Origin: Myxococcales bacterium
GTDB taxonomy: Bacteria > Myxococcota > Myxococcia > Myxococcales > Anaeromyxobacteraceae
Direction of reading: 5' to 3'
NCBI GenBank assembly: GCA_021806645.1
Contig: JAJZQX010000008.1
Span: 62,001-126,000, forward strand
DNA: 64,000 nucleotides
Shown one piece after another: positions 34,411 to 41,648 of this stretch. Position numbers and translations under genes: made by a program. A model generated the notes under the pieces. That model saw only the letters and a list, made by a program, of their open reading frames with translations. It was not told the origin of the DNA and ran no database searches. Each line of letters starts with the position of its first letter. Within the stretch, counting starts at the first letter, position 1.

Positions 34411-35577
34411 TCACATCCCCGGAAGCCGCGGTACCTGCTCGAGCTTCGACGCCTTGTAGTAGGCGCCCCAGGCCTGCTTCATCCAGTGGCCGACCACCGG
34501 GAGCGGGACCATCTGCTCCTTGACGCTGTCGCGGTGGATGTAGGCGGCGCCATTCCCCATGTCGAGTAGGCAGGTGATGCCGAGGTGGGGCAGGTAGCTC
34601 TCCCGCTCGGGGCGACCGGCCTCGAGGGCCCGGACGTTGCCCGCCACCACGCGCGCCATGACCTCGGCGACGTGCCCCTGCTTGGCCCTCCAGTCTGGGC
34701 CCTGCAGCGCGGCGGCGTCGCCGATCGCCCACACGCCGGCGAAACCCGGGACCGCGCAGCCGGCGTCGATCTGGACGAAGCCGGCTTCGTTCTTCGGCAG
34801 GTCCGACGACTTGACGATGGGGTGACCCTCACCGGCCGGCAGGAACAGGACCAGGTCGGCGTCCAGCTTCGACTGGTCCTCGAAGACCACGCCACCGGAC
34901 TCGAACCGATCGATCTTCTTGCCGAAGCGCCTGGCGATGCCGAGCCGGTCGAACATCGACTGGATGGCCCCGACGGCCTTCTTCCCCATCCGCTCGCCGG
35001 GGCTCGGCATGGGGGCGAAGAAGGTCAGCTCGAACGCGTCGCGGAGTCCGCGGCGCCGCAGCAGCGTGTCGACGTTGAACATGACCTCGAATACGGGCCC
35101 GCCGCGGACGGCCGAGGTGTCCTTGGGATTTCCCCCGAAGCCCATGGCGATCCGCCCGCTCCCCTTGGCCAGGAGCGCGTCGAGCGCCTCGTGGAGGCGC
35201 AGGACGTTCTCCGGCGCACCACCCAGCGTGAAGGTCTGCTCGACGCCCCTGGGCTTGAGCCGGTCGCCGCCCATGGCGACGATCAGGTGGTCGGCGGCGA
35301 ACTCGGCCCCGTTCACGGTCGCCGACCGGCGCGCCGCTGAGATCGACTCGACCGCCCCCTCGACGAAGGTGAAGCCGTGGCGCCGAGCGGCGTCCCCGAG
35401 GTCCAGCTTCACCTGGTCGAGCGAGCGCTCGCCGGTCACGACCCAGATGGAGGTCGGGTAGATGAATAGGAATGGGCGGTCTGAGACCAGGGTGACCTCG
35501 AGCCCGGCCTTGCGGAGCTGGATGGCCGCCTCGAGTCCCGCGAATCCGCCACCTATGACGAGCGATGTCTTGGTCAT
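34411..35577 (-). CDS. FAD-dependent oxidoreductase of the sulfide:quinone reductase type
   Basis: A 388-residue flavoprotein. GGGFAGLEAAIQLRKAGL is the FAD Rossmann motif; GCAVPGFAGVWAIGDAA is the second FAD block; the C-terminal TCLLDMGNGAAYIHRD and an amphipathic tail resemble SQR-type membrane-bound enzymes. The paired redox cysteines of true SQR are not obvious: only the Cys in GCAVPG and the one in TCLLDM are near expected places. The ATG at 35577 is used although the frame is open upstream. Next to CcdA and thioredoxins, a role in sulfide or thiol redox is plausible; type II NADH dehydrogenase is an alternative. Confidence 0.8.
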   Translation of the reverse strand: MTKTSLVIGGGFAGLEAAIQLRKAGLEVTLVSDRPFLFIYPTSIWVVTGERSLDQVKLDLGDAARRHGFTFVEGAVESISAARRSATVNGAEFAADHLIVAMGGDRLKPRGVEQTFTLGGAPENVLRLHEALDALLAKGSGRIAMGFGGNPKDTSAVRGGPVFEVMFNVDTLLRRRGLRDAFELTFFAPMPSPGERMGKKAVGAIQSMFDRLGIARRFGKKIDRFESGGVVFEDQSKLDADLVLFLPAGEGHPIVKSSDLPKNEAGFVQIDAGCAVPGFAGVWAIGDAAALQGPDWRAKQGHVAEVMARVVAGNVRALEAGRPERESYLPHLGITCLLDMGNGAAYIHRDSVKEQMVPLPVVGHWMKQAWGAYYKASKLEQVPRLPGM

Positions 35578-35585
35578 GATGTCCT

Positions 35586-36233
35586 CTACATCCCCACGAA
35601 GAGCATCCCCTTCGTCAGGATGATCAGGCCGAAGGTCACCAGCAGGATCCCTGAGGCCCAGCGCACCACCAGGGGGTGGGCCGCCACGGCCCGGATCCGC
35701 TGCCGCAGCGCCTGCGAACCGTACCCGACCGCCAGCATGGGGAAGGCGAACCCGGCCGAGTAGGCGAGCAGCATGAGGACGCCGGCCAGGAGCGTGCCCC
35801 GCGTCGCCACCGTGGCCAGGACGCCCGACAACATGGGGCCGACGCATGGGATCCAGACCAGGCCGAGGCTGAGCCCCAGCACGAGGCCGGACCAGCGCCC
35901 CCGGCCCGGCGCCCGGATGCCCTGTAGCCAGGTGAGGCGCTTGAAGAGGTTCACGTCGGCCAGGAGCAGCAGGCCGAAGAGGACGACCAGGCCGCCGACC
36001 CCCTTCTCCAGGTAAGGAAGGAACCGCCCGGCCGCGCCACCGAGCAGGCTGGTCAGCACCCCCATCACCATGAAGCTCACGGCGATGCCGGCCACCACCA
36101 GGGCCGGCCGAGAGCGGTCTTCGTCGGTGGTGCCGGTGACCAGGAGAGGCACCACCGGCAGGACGCACGGGCTGGCCACGCTGGCCAGGCCCGCGGCGAA
36201 GGAGAGGGCGAGCGACGAGAGCCCGAGGCCCAT
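35586..36233 (-). CDS. ccdA: CcdA/DsbD-like thiol:disulfide transmembrane transporter
   Basis: A 215-residue, six-helix membrane protein. The two redox cysteines sit in the expected places: C23 in ASPCVLPVVPL and C130 in WIPCVGPML. CcdA moves reducing power from cytoplasmic thioredoxin to the periplasm. The ATG at 36233 overlaps the preceding stop as TGATG (a GTG one codon earlier is also possible). It is the third gene of a coupled set with two thioredoxin-fold proteins, which would be its cytoplasmic donor and periplasmic acceptor. Confidence 0.92.
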   Translation of the reverse strand: MGLGLSSLALSFAAGLASVASPCVLPVVPLLVTGTTDEDRSRPALVVAGIAVSFMVMGVLTSLLGGAAGRFLPYLEKGVGGLVVLFGLLLLADVNLFKRLTWLQGIRAPGRGRWSGLVLGLSLGLVWIPCVGPMLSGVLATVATRGTLLAGVLMLLAYSAGFAFPMLAVGYGSQALRQRIRAVAAHPLVVRWASGILLVTFGLIILTKGMLFVGM

Positions 36234-36643
36234 CACGGCGCCAGGAGCTGGCGGACCTGCCTGTCCGGCTGGATTCCCGGGGTGGCCCGGCGGAGCTCCA
36301 CGCCGTTGCCGTCGGTCACGATGAGCTGGGGGAGGGAGCGGATGCCGTACTCCTCGAAGCGGGCGAGGTCGCCCGGCTCGGTGGTCCGGTAGTAGACGAG
36401 CTGCGCCCGCGAGGCCAGGTCCGGCATGCCGCGGAGGATCTCGTCCTGCATCTGGCAGGGGCGGCCGTTCGGGTTCATGAAGAAGACCAGGCGCGGCCGC
36501 GTCCCGGTGACGGGCGCCGCCGATGGCGCGGGGGAACCCGCCACGGGCGCCGCGAGCTGGACCGGAGCCGACGAGGCGTTCGAGCAGGCCGCCAGCGAGA
36601 GGGTGACGAGGACGAGAGCGGCTGTCTTCATGCGTGCGTTCAT
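36233..36643 (-). CDS. Lipoprotein with degenerate thioredoxin fold
   Basis: A 136-residue protein with a signal peptide and lipobox ending at C20 (LSLAAC). The mature part has a thioredoxin-like outline: LVFFMNPNGRPCQMQDEI, then a middle helix, then SLPQLIVTDGNG with the cis-Pro. The active site has only one cysteine (C63, in NGRPC) instead of CxxC, so it cannot cycle as a normal dithiol. Starts by ATGA overlap with the thioredoxin upstream and overlaps ccdA downstream. Probably a periplasmic partner of CcdA. Confidence 0.8.
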   Translation of the reverse strand: MNARMKTAALVLVTLSLAACSNASSAPVQLAAPVAGSPAPSAAPVTGTRPRLVFFMNPNGRPCQMQDEILRGMPDLASRAQLVYYRTTEPGDLARFEEYGIRSLPQLIVTDGNGVELRRATPGIQPDRQVRQLLAP

Positions 36644-37029
36644 TTGGGGCTCCCTTGCGGACTGGCGATCAGTTCGGAGTCGATCACTTCGTGCAGGTAG
36701 CGCGAGCCGACGAAGCCGGTCACCCGGGTCACCTCGCGCCCTTTCTTGAAGAAGAGGACGGTCGGCGTTCCCATGACGCCGAGCCGCGCCGCGTACTCGC
36801 GGGCCTCGCCGGCGTTCATCTCGGCGACCTTGACGTGACCCTGGTAGGCGGCGGCCAGGTCCATGATGACGGGCTCGAGCATGGCGCACGGCCCGCAGCC
36901 GGGGCTCCAGACGTCAAGGACCACCGGCAGGGTCGAGCGCGCCACCTCGGCGACGAAGTTCTCGTCATCCACGTGGACCGGCTGGACGCGCGGGGCCTTC
37001 GGGCCGAACAGCCTGTCGAACCATCCCAT
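36640..37029 (-). CDS. Thioredoxin
   Basis: A 129-residue thioredoxin with active site CGPC (C45, C48, in WSPGCGPCAM) and cis-Pro in MGTPTVLFFKKG. No signal peptide is evident, so it should be cytoplasmic, the electron donor to CcdA. The ATG at 37029 is preferred over an upstream in-frame start because GGGAG stands 7 bases before it. The first 20 residues (WFDRLFGPKAPRV) are an extra segment before the thioredoxin core. Confidence 0.92.
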   Translation of the reverse strand: MGWFDRLFGPKAPRVQPVHVDDENFVAEVARSTLPVVLDVWSPGCGPCAMLEPVIMDLAAAYQGHVKVAEMNAGEAREYAARLGVMGTPTVLFFKKGREVTRVTGFVGSRYLHEVIDSELIASPQGSPK

Positions 37030-37271: not shown

Positions 37272-37454
37272 ATGAGTGCCAACAAGACGGCAGGTATCGA
37301 CTTCTCGACGAAGGAGCTCCGCATCATGGTGCAGTCCCTGGGCAACTGCCTGGAGACTTGCCAGGTGCACGCCGAGAAGCCCGACGCACCGTGTGAGGAC
37401 TGTGACGCGGCGCGGAAGCTGAAGAGGAAGCTGGAGAAGCAGATCGCCGCCTGA
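37272..37454 (+). CDS. Small Cys-containing protein, unknown function
   Basis: A 60-residue cytoplasmic protein from the ATG at 37272, with GGAGGA directly upstream; an earlier in-frame start at 37251 has no ribosome-binding site. Four cysteines in two pairs, LGNCLETCQVH and APCEDCDAAR, followed by a basic helical tail (RKLKRKLEKQ), suggest a metal or redox site. I do not recognise the family. Fourteen bases before the 33-residue Cys-rich protein and divergent from the CcdA/thioredoxin set. Confidence 0.75.
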   Translation: MSANKTAGIDFSTKELRIMVQSLGNCLETCQVHAEKPDAPCEDCDAARKLKRKLEKQIAA

Positions 37455-37467
37455 GGAAGGACCAACC

Positions 37468-37569
37468 ATGAAGCTGCTGACGACGGTGAAGCAGGGCTGC
37501 TGCGCGCCCGAGAAGACGGCGCAGTGCTGTGCCAAGGCCTCCCGGCTGGTGTCGGGCTGCCACGACTGA
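37468..37569 (+). CDS. 33-residue Cys-rich microprotein
   Basis: ATG at 37468, stop TGA at 37567-37569, with GAGGAAGGA upstream. The product has five cysteines in 33 residues, as QGCCAPEK, AQCCAKAS and SGCHD. The two CC pairs and Lys/Ala spacing look like a small metal-binding (metallothionein-like) peptide. The start and ribosome-binding site are good, and a strong hairpin follows, so this is probably a real gene at the end of a two-gene unit. No family is recognised. Confidence 0.6.
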   Translation: MKLLTTVKQGCCAPEKTAQCCAKASRLVSGCHD

Positions 37570-37575
37570 AGCACC

Positions 37576-37599
37576 GCGGGGGCCCTCCGGGGCCTCCGC
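37576..37599 (+). terminator. Candidate terminator hairpin after the microprotein
   Basis: Arms GCGGGGGCCC (37576-37585) and GGGCCTCCGC (37590-37599) pair over ten positions with one G-T wobble, closed by a TCCG tetraloop. Only a short CCTTTCC follows, so a rho-independent role is likely but not certain. Confidence 0.5.
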
Positions 37600-37668: not shown

Positions 37669-38007
37669 ATGAGCGACCACGTCAGGGAGATCACCGAGGC
37701 GGACTACGAGCGCGAGGTGGTGGGCGCCGGCCAGCCGGTGGTGCTCGACTTCTTCTCCACCGAGTGCCCGCCCTGCGAGGCGCTCGCGCCCAAGTTCGAG
37801 GCGGTGGCCGGGCAGTTCGCCGGCAAGGTCCGCTTCCTCAAGGTCTTCCGCCAGGGCAATCGCGAGCTGGCCACCAGGCTGGGCGTGACCGGCAGTCCGA
37901 CGCTGATCTTCTTCGGCCCCGACGGTCGGGAGCGGGGCGAGCGGCTCGGCGGCGAGGAGATCAAGCGTACGGCCATCAAGGCGCAGGTCGAGGCGCTCAT
38001 CACGTGA
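37669..38007 (+). CDS. Thioredoxin with CPPC active site
   Basis: A 112-residue thioredoxin-family protein. The active site is C33-Pro-Pro-C36 (FFSTECPPCEAL), a less reducing variant than CGPC, with cis-Pro in TGSPTLIFF. No signal peptide. It is 13 bases before trxB, the obvious reductase partner. A CPPC site suggests a dedicated substrate rather than general thioredoxin. Confidence 0.9.
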   Translation: MSDHVREITEADYEREVVGAGQPVVLDFFSTECPPCEALAPKFEAVAGQFAGKVRFLKVFRQGNRELATRLGVTGSPTLIFFGPDGRERGERLGGEEIKRTAIKAQVEALIT

Positions 38008-38020
38008 CCTGGGGGAATCC

Positions 38021-38965
38021 ATGACCACCAAGTACGACCTCATCATCGTCGGCGCCGGGCCGGCCGGCCTGGCGGCCGCCATCTACGCGGCCCGGGCCAG
38101 GCTGCGGACGCTGGTCCTGGACGAGAGCGTCGCGGGGGGGCAGGTGAAGACCACCCACAAGGTCTCCAACTACCCGGGCTTTCCGGAGGACATCAAGGGG
38201 ACCGACCTCGCCAAGGCCTTCGCCACGCAGGCGGAGCGGTTTGGCGCCACCATCCGGCGCGCCATCGAGATCACCGCCCACGACTTCTCGGGCCCGGTGA
38301 AGACGATCGAGCTCGACGAGGAGGAGACGGTCGAGGCCCCGGCGGTCATCGTCGCCACGGGCGCCAGGCCGCGCGATCTCGGCATCCCGGGCGAGTCGAA
38401 GTACAAGGGGCGGGGCATCAGCTACTGCGCCACCTGCGACGGCGCCTACTTCGAGGGCAAGGACATCCACGTCATCGGCGGCGGCAACTCCGCGGTCGAG
38501 GAGTCGCTCTTCCTCACCAGGTTCGCGCGCTCGGTCACCATCATCCACCAGTTCGACCATTTCCAGGCCGAGGCCGCCACCACCGAGGAGGCCCTCCACA
38601 ACCCCAAGATCGAGGTCATCTGGGACTCGGAGCCGCGCGCCTTCACCGGCGAGGGGGGACTGCAGGCGCTCACCATCGAGAACGTCAAGACCCGGAAGAC
38701 GACCGACCTGAAGACCGACGGCGTCTTCGTCTTCATCGGCTACGTGCCGCGCACCGACCTGGTCAAGGGGGTCGTCGCGCTGAACAAGTGGGGGTACGTG
38801 GAGACCGCCGAGGACATGTCCACCCCGGTGCCCGGGCTCTACGTGGCCGGAGACATCCGCGCCAAGAGCTTCCGCCAGATCACCACCGCGGTCGCGGACG
38901 GGACCATCGCCGCCCTGGCGGCCCAGAAGTACGTGAAGCAGGCCGTGGCGAACGTCGCCGCCTGA
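38021..38965 (+). CDS. trxB: Thioredoxin reductase
   Basis: A 314-residue FAD/NADPH flavoprotein. FAD motif IIVGAGPAGLAAAIYAARA, redox pair CATC (C136, C139) in SYCATCDGAYF, NADPH motif VIGGGNSAVEESLFL, and GLYVAGDIRAKSFRQ at the C-terminus. It probably reduces the CPPC thioredoxin directly upstream. Full length. Confidence 0.94.
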   Translation: MTTKYDLIIVGAGPAGLAAAIYAARARLRTLVLDESVAGGQVKTTHKVSNYPGFPEDIKGTDLAKAFATQAERFGATIRRAIEITAHDFSGPVKTIELDEEETVEAPAVIVATGARPRDLGIPGESKYKGRGISYCATCDGAYFEGKDIHVIGGGNSAVEESLFLTRFARSVTIIHQFDHFQAEAATTEEALHNPKIEVIWDSEPRAFTGEGGLQALTIENVKTRKTTDLKTDGVFVFIGYVPRTDLVKGVVALNKWGYVETAEDMSTPVPGLYVAGDIRAKSFRQITTAVADGTIAALAAQKYVKQAVANVAA

Positions 38966-39245: not shown

Positions 39246-39503
39246 TCAGGTCGGTTTCGAGGGCGATGGCCTGCCGATGATCAGGCCGACGATGGCCCCG
39301 GCCACCGAGGCGCTGCCGACGTTGGAGAGGATGGCGCACCCCCCGGTCCGGCAGCCGATGAGCTGGGCGTAGGCCCCGCCGACGACGGCCCCGACGGCAC
39401 CCAGCAGCAGGGTCCGCCAGCCGCCGTGGCGCAGCCAGGCGAGGAGGCGGTTGGTGGCACGGGTCTCGGGGACGGTTGGCTGCGGGGCTGGGTCGAGTGG
39501 CAT
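39246..39503 (-). CDS. DUF6132-type small membrane protein
   Basis: An 85-residue protein with a short N-terminal tail and two hydrophobic helices flanking the motif LIGCRTGGCAILSN, which I recognise as the conserved CxxGxC segment of DUF6132. Family members often sit beside thioredoxin or sulfide-oxidation genes. Function unknown; the two cysteines suggest redox or metal binding. It runs with the zinc-finger gene, 26 bases before it. Confidence 0.75.
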   Translation of the reverse strand: MPLDPAPQPTVPETRATNRLLAWLRHGGWRTLLLGAVGAVVGGAYAQLIGCRTGGCAILSNVGSASVAGAIVGLIIGRPSPSKPT

Positions 39504-39627: not shown

Positions 39628-40296
39628 ATGGTGACCGGAGACGATCAGGGCATGGGGCCGATTGGCCAGGCGGTCGCGGCCCGCTACGGGGCGCTGGCCA
39701 GCCAGACCGGCTCGCTCTCGTGTGGCGGTGCGCTCGAGCTGGCCGCGCCTAGCCCCGGGGAACGGCTCGTCGATCTCGGCTGCGGCCGGGGCGGCGACCT
39801 CTTCCGTGCCGCCGCCATGGTGGGACCGGCCGGGCACGCCACCGGCGTGGACGCCACGCCACGGATGGTGGAGGCGGCGCGCGAGCGGATCGCCGGGCTC
39901 GCCAACGCCTCCGTCGTCCAGGGGGACCTCGCCGCCGTGCCGCTGCCGGCCGCCTGCGCCGACGTGGTGGTCTCCAACTGCGCCATCAACCACGCCCCGG
40001 ACAAGGCGGCGGTCTATCGCGAGGTGGCCCGCCTGCTCGCCGCCGGCGGGCGCGTGGTGGTCTCGGACGTGGTCGCGGAGGCCGTCCTGCCCGAGTCGGT
40101 GCGGTCGGACCCGGCCGCTTGGGCCGCCTGCTACGGCGGCGCCGTCCCCGAGGCCGACTACCTGGCCGCCGTGGCCGCCGCCGGGCTCGCCGACATCCGC
40201 GTCATCAAGCGGACCGAGCCCTACGAGAAGGGCGGCGTCCGAGTCCTCAGCATCACCCTGGAGGCGCGCGCGCCGCGCCGCGCCATGGAGCAATAG
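39628..40296 (+). CDS. ArsM-like SAM-dependent methyltransferase
   Basis: A 222-residue class I methyltransferase. [13 protein letters not shown] is the SAM-binding motif, [20 protein letters not shown] and [16 protein letters not shown] closely resemble arsenite methyltransferases, as does the Cys in WAACYGGAV. The N-terminal Cys pair of ArsM is not clear, so arsenite as substrate is uncertain. GGGGGGAG precedes the ATG at 39628. The stop overlaps the radical SAM gene start by one base (TAGTG), so the two are probably made together. Confidence 0.82.
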
Positions 40297-41648
40297 TGCA
40301 ACTGTCCCGACACGCCATCCTCGCCGATGTCCCTGGGCGCGACGAGGTCCTGCTGGTCCAGCCGCTCTCCGGCCAGGCCGCCCTGCTGCGGCGGGCCGAC
40401 GCCGCCGTGCTCCGCGCGCTGCCCGGCCCGCTTCCGGCCTCGCTGCCGGAGGCCACGCTGCGGCAGGCCGGCTTCGTGGTGGACGCGCCCGCCGACGACC
40501 AGGCCCTCCTCGACGGCGCGGTGGCCACCTGGCGCGCCGAGGCGGCGCAGACCCAGACGCAGCTCATCGTGGTGCCGACCTTCGGCTGCAACCTCGCCTG
40601 CACCTACTGCTACCAGGAGCTCTTCGATCCGGCCGGGGCAGGCCTGATCACGCCCAAGGCGATCGACGCCTTCTTCTCCTACGTGGACCGGCACCACCTG
40701 GGCGGCCCGCTCAAGCCCTACCTGACCATCTTCGGCGGCGAGCCGCTGCGCGACACGCCGGCCCACCACGATCGGATCGGCCGCTTCCTGGACGGCGCGC
40801 GGGCGCGCTCCATGAAGGTGGCGGTGGTCACCAACGGCCACGACCTGGTGGCCTTCGTGCCCACGCTGGCCGCCGGTCCGGTCAAGGAGGTCCAGGTCAC
40901 GCTGGATGGTCCGCGCTCGCTGCACGACGCCCGCCGTCCCCACAAGGACGGCTCGGGAACCTTCGACCGGATCGTCGCCGGGATCGACGCGCTGCTGGCG
41001 GCCGGCGTGCCGGTCAACCTGCGCGTGGTGGCCGACAAGGAGAACCTGCCGCACCTGCCCGAACTGGCGTCGTTCGCGGCCGCGCGCGGGTGGCTCGACC
41101 AGCCGGCGTCCCGCTTCAAGACGCAGATCGGGCGGAACTACGAACTCTTCGGCTGCGCCAGCCGGCAGGACCGCGGAGCCCTCTTCGACCGGGTCGAGCT
41201 CTGGGCCCGCTACCTCGAGCTCTGCGAAGCCCACCCCGAGCTGCGCCGCTTCCACGCGCCGCGCTTCCACGGGATCGGGCATCTCGCCTCGGCCGGCGAG
41301 CTGCCGCCGCCCAACTTCGACGCCTGCCCGGCCACCAAGAGCGAGTGGGCCTTCTCGCCCGACGGCGGCGTCTTCGGCTGCACCGCCACGGTGGGCCACC
41401 CGGCCCACCGGCTCGGCTCCTTCTTCCCGGAGGTGGCTCGCGACGAGGCCGCCATCGCACGGTGGAGCGGCCGCACCACGCTCGCGATGGCGGGCTGCCA
41501 GGGCTGCGCGCTGGCGCCGGTCTGCGGCGGTGGCTGCGGCGCGGTGGCCTGGCACCGGACCGGCTCGGCCCTGGATACCGACTGCCGGCCGGTGCGCGAA
41601 CTCTACGGCCTCGGAGCCCGGTTCTACGGACTCGGGGACGCTGCGTGA
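40296..41648 (+). CDS. Radical SAM/SPASM maturase-like enzyme
   Basis: A 450-residue radical SAM enzyme. The first 90 residues form a small domain (ILADVPGRDEVLLVQPLSG) typical of peptide-modifying members. The SAM cluster is C98-x3-C102-x2-C105 (FGCNLACTYCYQE), with LTIFGGEPL following. The SPASM region holds cysteines 344, 362, 401, 404, 410, 414 and 430, enough for two auxiliary clusters. The GTG at 40296 overlaps the methyltransferase stop, with GGAG 6 bases upstream. Family knowledge suggests maturation of a peptide or protein; no precursor peptide of a known type is adjacent. Confidence 0.88.
   Translation: MQLSRHAILADVPGRDEVLLVQPLSGQAALLRRADAAVLRALPGPLPASLPEATLRQAGFVVDAPADDQALLDGAVATWRAEAAQTQTQLIVVPTFGCNLACTYCYQELFDPAGAGLITPKAIDAFFSYVDRHHLGGPLKPYLTIFGGEPLRDTPAHHDRIGRFLDGARARSMKVAVVTNGHDLVAFVPTLAAGPVKEVQVTLDGPRSLHDARRPHKDGSGTFDRIVAGIDALLAAGVPVNLRVVADKENLPHLPELASFAAARGWLDQPASRFKTQIGRNYELFGCASRQDRGALFDRVELWARYLELCEAHPELRRFHAPRFHGIGHLASAGELPPPNFDACPATKSEWAFSPDGGVFGCTATVGHPAHRLGSFFPEVARDEAAIARWSGRTTLAMAGCQGCALAPVCGGGCGAVAWHRTGSALDTDCRPVRELYGLGARFYGLGDAA

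Follow-up and report, generated by a model that had tools for sequence, protein, structure and literature searches.

Described systems closest to the locus

Peptide maturation by radical-SAM (rSAM) enzymes, ArsM-type methylation, and thioredoxin reduction are each known, and a described counterpart exists for several parts of the locus reported here. The closest by structure is CteB/CteA (SCIFF, a thioether-forming ranthipeptide), in which a maturase with an N-terminal peptide-binding domain, an rSAM core, and a SPASM domain with two auxiliary clusters is paired with a short Cys-rich peptide gene. The N-terminal domain of CteB is a peptide-binding RRE. The overall architecture is shared by the genes that we describe, with an RRE-like N-terminal domain proposed to bind the peptide, from a 64,000-nucleotide stretch of a Myxococcales bacterium contig (JAJZQX010000008.1, positions 62,001 to 126,000; here called the window). 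Identity, however, is ∼15%, the peptide is unrelated in sequence, and the locus adds an ArsM-like methyltransferase (MTase) and a thioredoxin/thioredoxin reductase pair (Trx/TrxB).

By profile score, the families nearest to the window rSAM enzyme are NCBIfam RiPP maturases (TIGR04463 “rSAM_vs_C_rich,” CefB, geopeptide, and Clo7bot), and every match falls well below its cut-off. TIGR04463 scored 125.8 bits against the window enzyme and 121 to 160 bits across it and its relatives (cut-off, 525); the corresponding ranges were 114 to 162 bits for CefB (cut-off, 600), 88 to 122 for the geopeptide maturase (cut-off, 400), and 57 to 99.9 for the SCIFF maturase (cut-off, 425). Because these scores fall short of the family cut-offs, membership in any of the four families was rejected. 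TIGR04463 was not named in any paper found in our literature search.

Arsenite methyltransferases of the ArsM/AS3MT type provide a second comparison. In CmArsM, Cys72, Cys174, and Cys224 bind As(III), and AS3MT uses Trx/TR/NADPH (PMC12608789). The window MTase has in common with these enzymes the methyltransferase fold, the three As(III)-binding cysteines, and an available thioredoxin system as reductant; it differs in being ∼160 residues shorter than the solved ArsM chains and in its linkage to genes for a peptide and an rSAM enzyme. In the TrsS/DVU_1556 system, an rSAM selenoprotein is paired with an ArsM-like methyltransferase. The locus likewise holds an rSAM and ArsM-like pair, but the window MTase reaches 84.9 bits against 155. 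The window rSAM enzyme is not among the 12 matches of the TrsS model in this genome, and we therefore rejected it as a TrsS member.

The As(III) chaperone ArsD, finally, resembles the microprotein P33 of the window in having a vicinal Cys pair and a third Cys (Cys12, Cys13, and Cys18; PMC12607644), but ArsD is a 120-residue protein, and P33 is a peptide with no significant sequence relation to it. A single P33 relative among those scanned matched an ArsD-related model, at 11.4 bits (E = 0.22), where the cut-off is 90, and ArsD family membership was rejected on this basis. Literature searches with the P33 core motifs returned unrelated papers only, and searches combining RiPP with ArsM or rSAM with arsenite methyltransferase returned nothing relevant; an earlier mention in recent neighborhood surveys is possible. 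A survey of Bacteroidales RiPPs (PMC10352776) mentions neither thioredoxin nor ArsM. In the libraries and papers searched, the combination of these parts and the microprotein family are undescribed, as is the rSAM subfamily.

A conserved microprotein and its optional neighbor

A first-pass annotation of the window had drawn attention to two tiny Cys-rich genes (P60 and P33), said to lie 14 bases apart with good ribosome-binding sites and a terminator-like hairpin, between a CcdA/thioredoxin set and a thioredoxin/TrxB set. Both open reading frames are present with the Cys pairs that it listed: C26-x3-C30 and C41-x2-C44 in P60, and two CC pairs plus C31 in P33, whose translation from the window sequence is MKLLTTVKQGCCAPEKTAQCCAKASRLVSGCHD. 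The neighbors on either side are also as it had them, and good Shine-Dalgarno-like sites precede both genes (GGAGG for P60 and GGAAGG for P33). The two genes are adjacent as reported, at a spacing of 13 bases rather than 14. The hairpin likewise exists, with a z score of −1.8 in the window and scores near −3.5 in two of the five relatives examined; a terminator was rejected, since the U tract is absent and a terminator scan downstream of P33 called nothing. The hairpin is perhaps a 3′ end stabilizer or an attenuator.

Table 1. Features of the locus, in window coordinates
Feature	Position	Strand	Description
P60	37272-37454	+	Optional accessory protein; predicted helical hairpin with CxxxC-x10-CxDC
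P33	37468-37569	+	33-residue Cys-rich microprotein; proposed precursor/carrier peptide
P33 invariant core	37519-37566	+	AQCCAKASRLVSGCHD; CC-x9-C-H-D at the very C terminus
Hairpin 3′ of the P33 stop	37576-37599	+	10 bp, GC-rich; without U tract
Trx2	37669-38007	+	Dedicated thioredoxin; SxxCPPC, invariant RQ
TrxB	38021-38965	+	Dedicated thioredoxin reductase; HQFD replaces HRRxxxR
ArsM-like SAM-dependent methyltransferase (MTase)	39628-40296	+	222 aa; Cys triad C32/C118/C168
rSAM N-terminal ∼85 residues	40296-40550	+	Three strands plus helices; superposes on the CteB N-terminal part; proposed P33-binding (RRE-like) domain
Radical-SAM/SPASM enzyme (rSAM)	40296-41648	+	450 aa; GTG start overlaps the methyltransferase stop codon; proposed P33 maturase

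The first-pass annotation had staked the pair on conservation in relatives with the same neighbors, and both peptides are conserved: P60 was found in 15 of 60 relatives and P33 in 19 of 60 (18 of them convincing; the match in genome G043 is weak). Substitutions in the P33 core number 346 at third codon positions versus 37 at first and second positions combined, a pattern that indicates purifying selection. Conservation and codon-position bias together rule out a spurious open reading frame, and we conclude that P33 is a real, highly conserved gene.

The final 16 residues of P33, A-Q-C-C-A-K-x-S-x-x-V-x-G-C-H-D, are shared by family members from Myxococcota, Bacillota, Bacteroidota, and Spirochaetota. 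Among 70 distinct peptides, the core residues A, C, C, K, G, C, and H are 100% conserved, and Q, S, and D are nearly invariant. The first half is variable except for MK[SL][LV]xKK, and 27 of the 70 peptides lack the N-terminal CC pair. The two CC pairs plus a fifth Cys taken earlier as the hallmark of P33 thus hold for the window but not for the family, whose conserved chemistry is instead CC-x9-C-H-[DN] at the very end. Family members are ∼30 to 43 residues long. Pfam and NCBIfam searches with P33 matched no model (NCBIfam even at E values up to 10), which we attribute to its being so short and so uneven in its first half. The microprotein, nearly unchanged across four anaerobic phyla, has no model in either library searched. 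Genome bin G018, with 4% contamination, carries two P33 genes (loci L049 on G018:C365 and L048 on G018:C68), and one G018 contig resembles the window in carrying P33 and P60 together with TsoC-like and CcdA genes.

P60 belongs to a family found in Myxococcota and Clostridia with an invariant CxxxC-x10-CxDC arrangement, the spacer between the Cys pairs running from 8 to 11 across the family, and it often adjoins Trx2/TrxB. It, too, matched no model in Pfam or NCBIfam (the latter even at E values up to 10). The predicted structure is a two-helix hairpin (pLDDT, 86) whose four Cys lie close to the turn, an arrangement suggestive of a metal site with a structural or regulatory role. The position of P60 varies between relatives, it is sometimes absent, and it was not found in the Bacteroidota loci that bear P33. 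The proposal that P60 and P33 form one module did not survive these comparisons: many loci lack P60, so a single P33-P60 unit was rejected, and P60 is an optional partner of the P33 module.

The CcdA/thioredoxin side of the presumed thiol-redox island fared no better. Across relatives, CcdA, TsoC, and Trx1 do not regularly accompany P33, and the set was rejected as part of the system because it is not conserved there. In the window, this side includes a lipoprotein-like thioredoxin-fold protein (36233-36652, minus strand) containing MNPNGRPCQ, followed by a CcdA-like gene. This motif resembles the NEPxGxxU of selenoprotein TsoC with Cys in place of selenocysteine (a weak match; E = 0.088), which raises the question of whether the two genes correspond to part of the Tso system in a form without selenium.

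A five-gene module of microprotein, rSAM enzyme, methyltransferase, and thioredoxin pair

When window genes were mapped on relatives, P33 accompanied Trx2, TrxB, and the MTase and rSAM genes; the latter two, 2 to 4 kb downstream of P33, are its defining partners and had been overlooked in the first-pass annotation. An alignment of the rSAM enzyme was then used as the query against a collection of genomes from 84,980 species, yielding 178 rSAM relatives, of which the best 80 were fetched with their surroundings; these 80 lie in Myxococcota, Bacillota (Carboxydothermus, Thermoanaerobacterium, and other Clostridia), Bacteroidota, and Spirochaetota. A P33 gene, recognized by its C-terminal pattern, is present in 73 of the best 80 stretches. 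Four of the remaining seven come from genomes that carry P33 on another contig, and two more, from metagenome-assembled genomes (MAGs), begin 114 to 132 bases before the rSAM gene; in the last, also from a MAG (G013, locus L061), rSAM is present and P33 was not detected. Profile searches of 195 genomes from the phylum to which the window belongs gave rSAM matches in 24 and P33 matches in 23, all of the latter lying within the rSAM-positive group and none among the 171 remaining genomes (Fisher p = 5e-29, ignoring relatedness). The rSAM count was taken at E values below 1e-160; four matches between 1e-62 and 1e-71 were left out as a different family. An independent P33 profile search of 395 Bacteroidota gave six matches, five of which adjoin rSAM and MTase genes; the sixth adjoins an MTase gene, and the rSAM gene of that genome lies on another contig. 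P33 and rSAM therefore co-occur almost without exception, presenting the link between a short precursor gene and a dedicated modifying enzyme by which RiPP systems are recognized.

The order MTase-P33-rSAM-Trx-TrxB occurs in 48 of 64 five-gene loci, and the others are rearranged with the same content. Since gene order shifts while the set persists, this is stronger evidence for a functional link than a frozen operon would be. Gene distances of module members correlate at r = 0.89 to 0.97, species relatedness not being factored in, which fits joint inheritance.

The rSAM enzyme has the predicted fold and cluster motifs of a peptide maturase. Its CxxxCxxC motif (C98/C102/C105) and a seven-Cys SPASM pattern (C344, C362, C401, C404, C410, C414, and C430) are invariant in 35 sequences across the phyla in which it was found. 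The predicted structure (pLDDT, 92) matches CteB best (5wgg/5why), over residues 4 to 448 with a Z score of 27.3 and an rmsd of 3.6 for 395 residues. No plasmid copy of the rSAM gene was found.

The best Protein Data Bank matches of the MTase are arsenite methyltransferases (5evj; E = 1.4e-25), the next kind of protein following at 1.7e-12. Its C32, C118, and C168 align with the three As(III)-binding cysteines of CmArsM and are kept in 99 to 100% of 73 orthologues, so that the As(III) triad is intact. Against the NCBIfam model NF008823, it scores 175 bits (cut-off, 263) and its Carboxydothermus orthologue 184, so the MTase is related to ArsM without being a filed arsenite methyltransferase. 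The genome holds another ArsM-like gene, separate from this one.

Trx2 and TrxB are dedicated to the module, in agreement with the linkage of dedicated thioredoxins to P33 that had been proposed. Trx2 adjoins the P33 or rSAM gene in nearly all loci, and the two proteins are one ∼422-residue fusion in most loci of Bacteroidota, Clostridia, and Spirochaetota and in some Myxococcota. TrxB scores 357 bits against TIGR01292 (cut-off, 343.45), and nearly all of 70 orthologues have the redox motif CATC. HQF is kept in ∼63 of the 70, whereas the other, ordinary TrxB of the genome keeps the NADPH motif (HRRGELR). In light of the HQFD that replaces HRRxxxR, it is possible that the module TrxB uses a donor other than NADPH, such as NADH.

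Recurrent neighbors beyond the five genes are SQR-like and CoA-disulfide reductase/rhodanese genes (sulfur/thiol genes), DUF1847, and DUF302; no arsenic-resistance family and no exporter, leader-peptidase, or immunity gene family recurs. Because the recurrent neighbors are sulfur/thiol genes instead of arsenic-resistance genes, the MTase substrate need not be arsenic. A sulfide-quinone-reductase-like flavoprotein encoded in the window (34411-35589, minus strand) is found repeatedly around the module in both Myxococcota and Bacteroidota, which suggests a link to sulfide or polysulfide. Outside Myxococcota, DUF1847 (17 loci) and DUF302 (16 loci) adjoin the module, for example in Bacteroidota at L098:9326-9811 and L085:11174-11578, and may be further partners. 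The window also encodes an 85-residue membrane protein with GCxxGxC (39246-39503, minus strand), small relatives of which occur near the module in several Bacteroidota.

Candidate roles of P33

We favor, with moderate confidence, a RiPP-like system in which P33 is the substrate of the rSAM enzyme and then remains intracellular as a Cys3-His carrier in chemistry involving a metal(loid) or a methyl group. The pairing of a linked short peptide, invariant in its core, with a SPASM enzyme whose N terminus resembles the peptide-binding part of CteB is characteristic of RiPP-like systems, and from these genomic and structural links we infer with good confidence that P33 is the substrate of the module rSAM. 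The RRE-like N-terminal domain would bind the Lys-rich head MK[SL][LV]xKK, and radical chemistry would alter the core CC-x9-C-H-D, for example by forming a thioether or another cross-link. We are fairly confident that the derived peptide is intracellular, because exporter and peptidase families are not recurrent; mature P33 would serve there as a small carrier or cofactor with a Cys3-His site. The intact ArsM-like triad suggests the involvement of a soft metal(loid) or methyl group, which P33 would hold or deliver and on which the MTase would act; As(III) or another soft metal(loid) as the actual business of P33 is a tentative assignment. The Trx/TrxB pair would hold the cysteines of P33 and MTase reduced, and the use of thioredoxin systems as reductant by ArsM-type enzymes (PMC12608789) would explain why a dedicated pair is present. 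Counting against a maturase are the shortness of P33 for a leader-plus-core precursor, its lack of a clear cleavage site, and the genomic or structural nature of every link between rSAM and P33. A more specific version, in which a Cys3-His site of rSAM-modified P33 holds As(III) (or Sb, Te, or Se) during methylation by the ArsM-like enzyme, would yield a peptide-bound organometalloid as a carrier, detoxification intermediate, or bioactive product; we consider it quite unlikely.

Part of the same evidence could be read without peptide modification. Pairs of rSAM and ArsM enzymes are known from organoarsenical pathways, and P33 might be an unmodified metallochaperone that binds As(III) or a soft metal(loid) through CC-x9-C and passes its load to the ArsM-like enzyme, the substrate of the rSAM enzyme then being the methylated metalloid or some other small molecule instead of P33. 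The three invariant Cys and the His of P33, the intact MTase triad, and the precedent of ArsD agree with such a role. The complete SPASM domain of the rSAM enzyme and its CteB-like N terminus for peptide binding are, however, features of a peptide maturase, the invariant or nearly invariant non-ligand residues A, K, S, G, and D of the core go beyond what metal binding needs, and ars genes are not recurrent nearby. We regard a metallochaperone as unlikely.

The first-pass annotation had envisaged a metal- or thiol-relay module, of which a real, conserved, model-free P33 with a dedicated Trx/TrxB pair has stood and the P60 unit, the CcdA set, and a simple relay have not. In a thiol relay, P33 and P60 would be redox carriers recharged by the dedicated thioredoxin/TrxB, consistent with the usual fusion of that pair, the vicinal Cys pair of P33, and the thiol-redox surroundings in the window. 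Such a relay is insufficient, because it leaves unexplained the ArsM-like MTase and the RiPP-maturase-type rSAM enzyme that are near-universal partners of P33; P60 is often absent, moreover, and a relay would not be expected to have an invariant His-Asp tail or a lone third Cys. We consider it improbable. An exported sactipeptide or ranthipeptide, acting as bacteriocin or signal with a tailoring methyltransferase, is very improbable despite the resemblance of the rSAM enzyme to sacti/ranthipeptide maturases, given that exporter, peptidase, and immunity genes are not recurrent, that bacteriocins lack the near-invariance seen in this core across four phyla, and that the MTase retains its metalloid site.

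The locus represents an undescribed five-gene system, present in four anaerobic phyla and centered on a microprotein. If P33 is modified, it joins the few conserved peptides that possibly act inside the cell, like the PQQ and mycofactocin precursors, and not as antibiotics. The link to an ArsM-like MTase would connect RiPP chemistry with metalloid methylation, a process relevant to the paddy soils and sediments that are home to several of the hosts.
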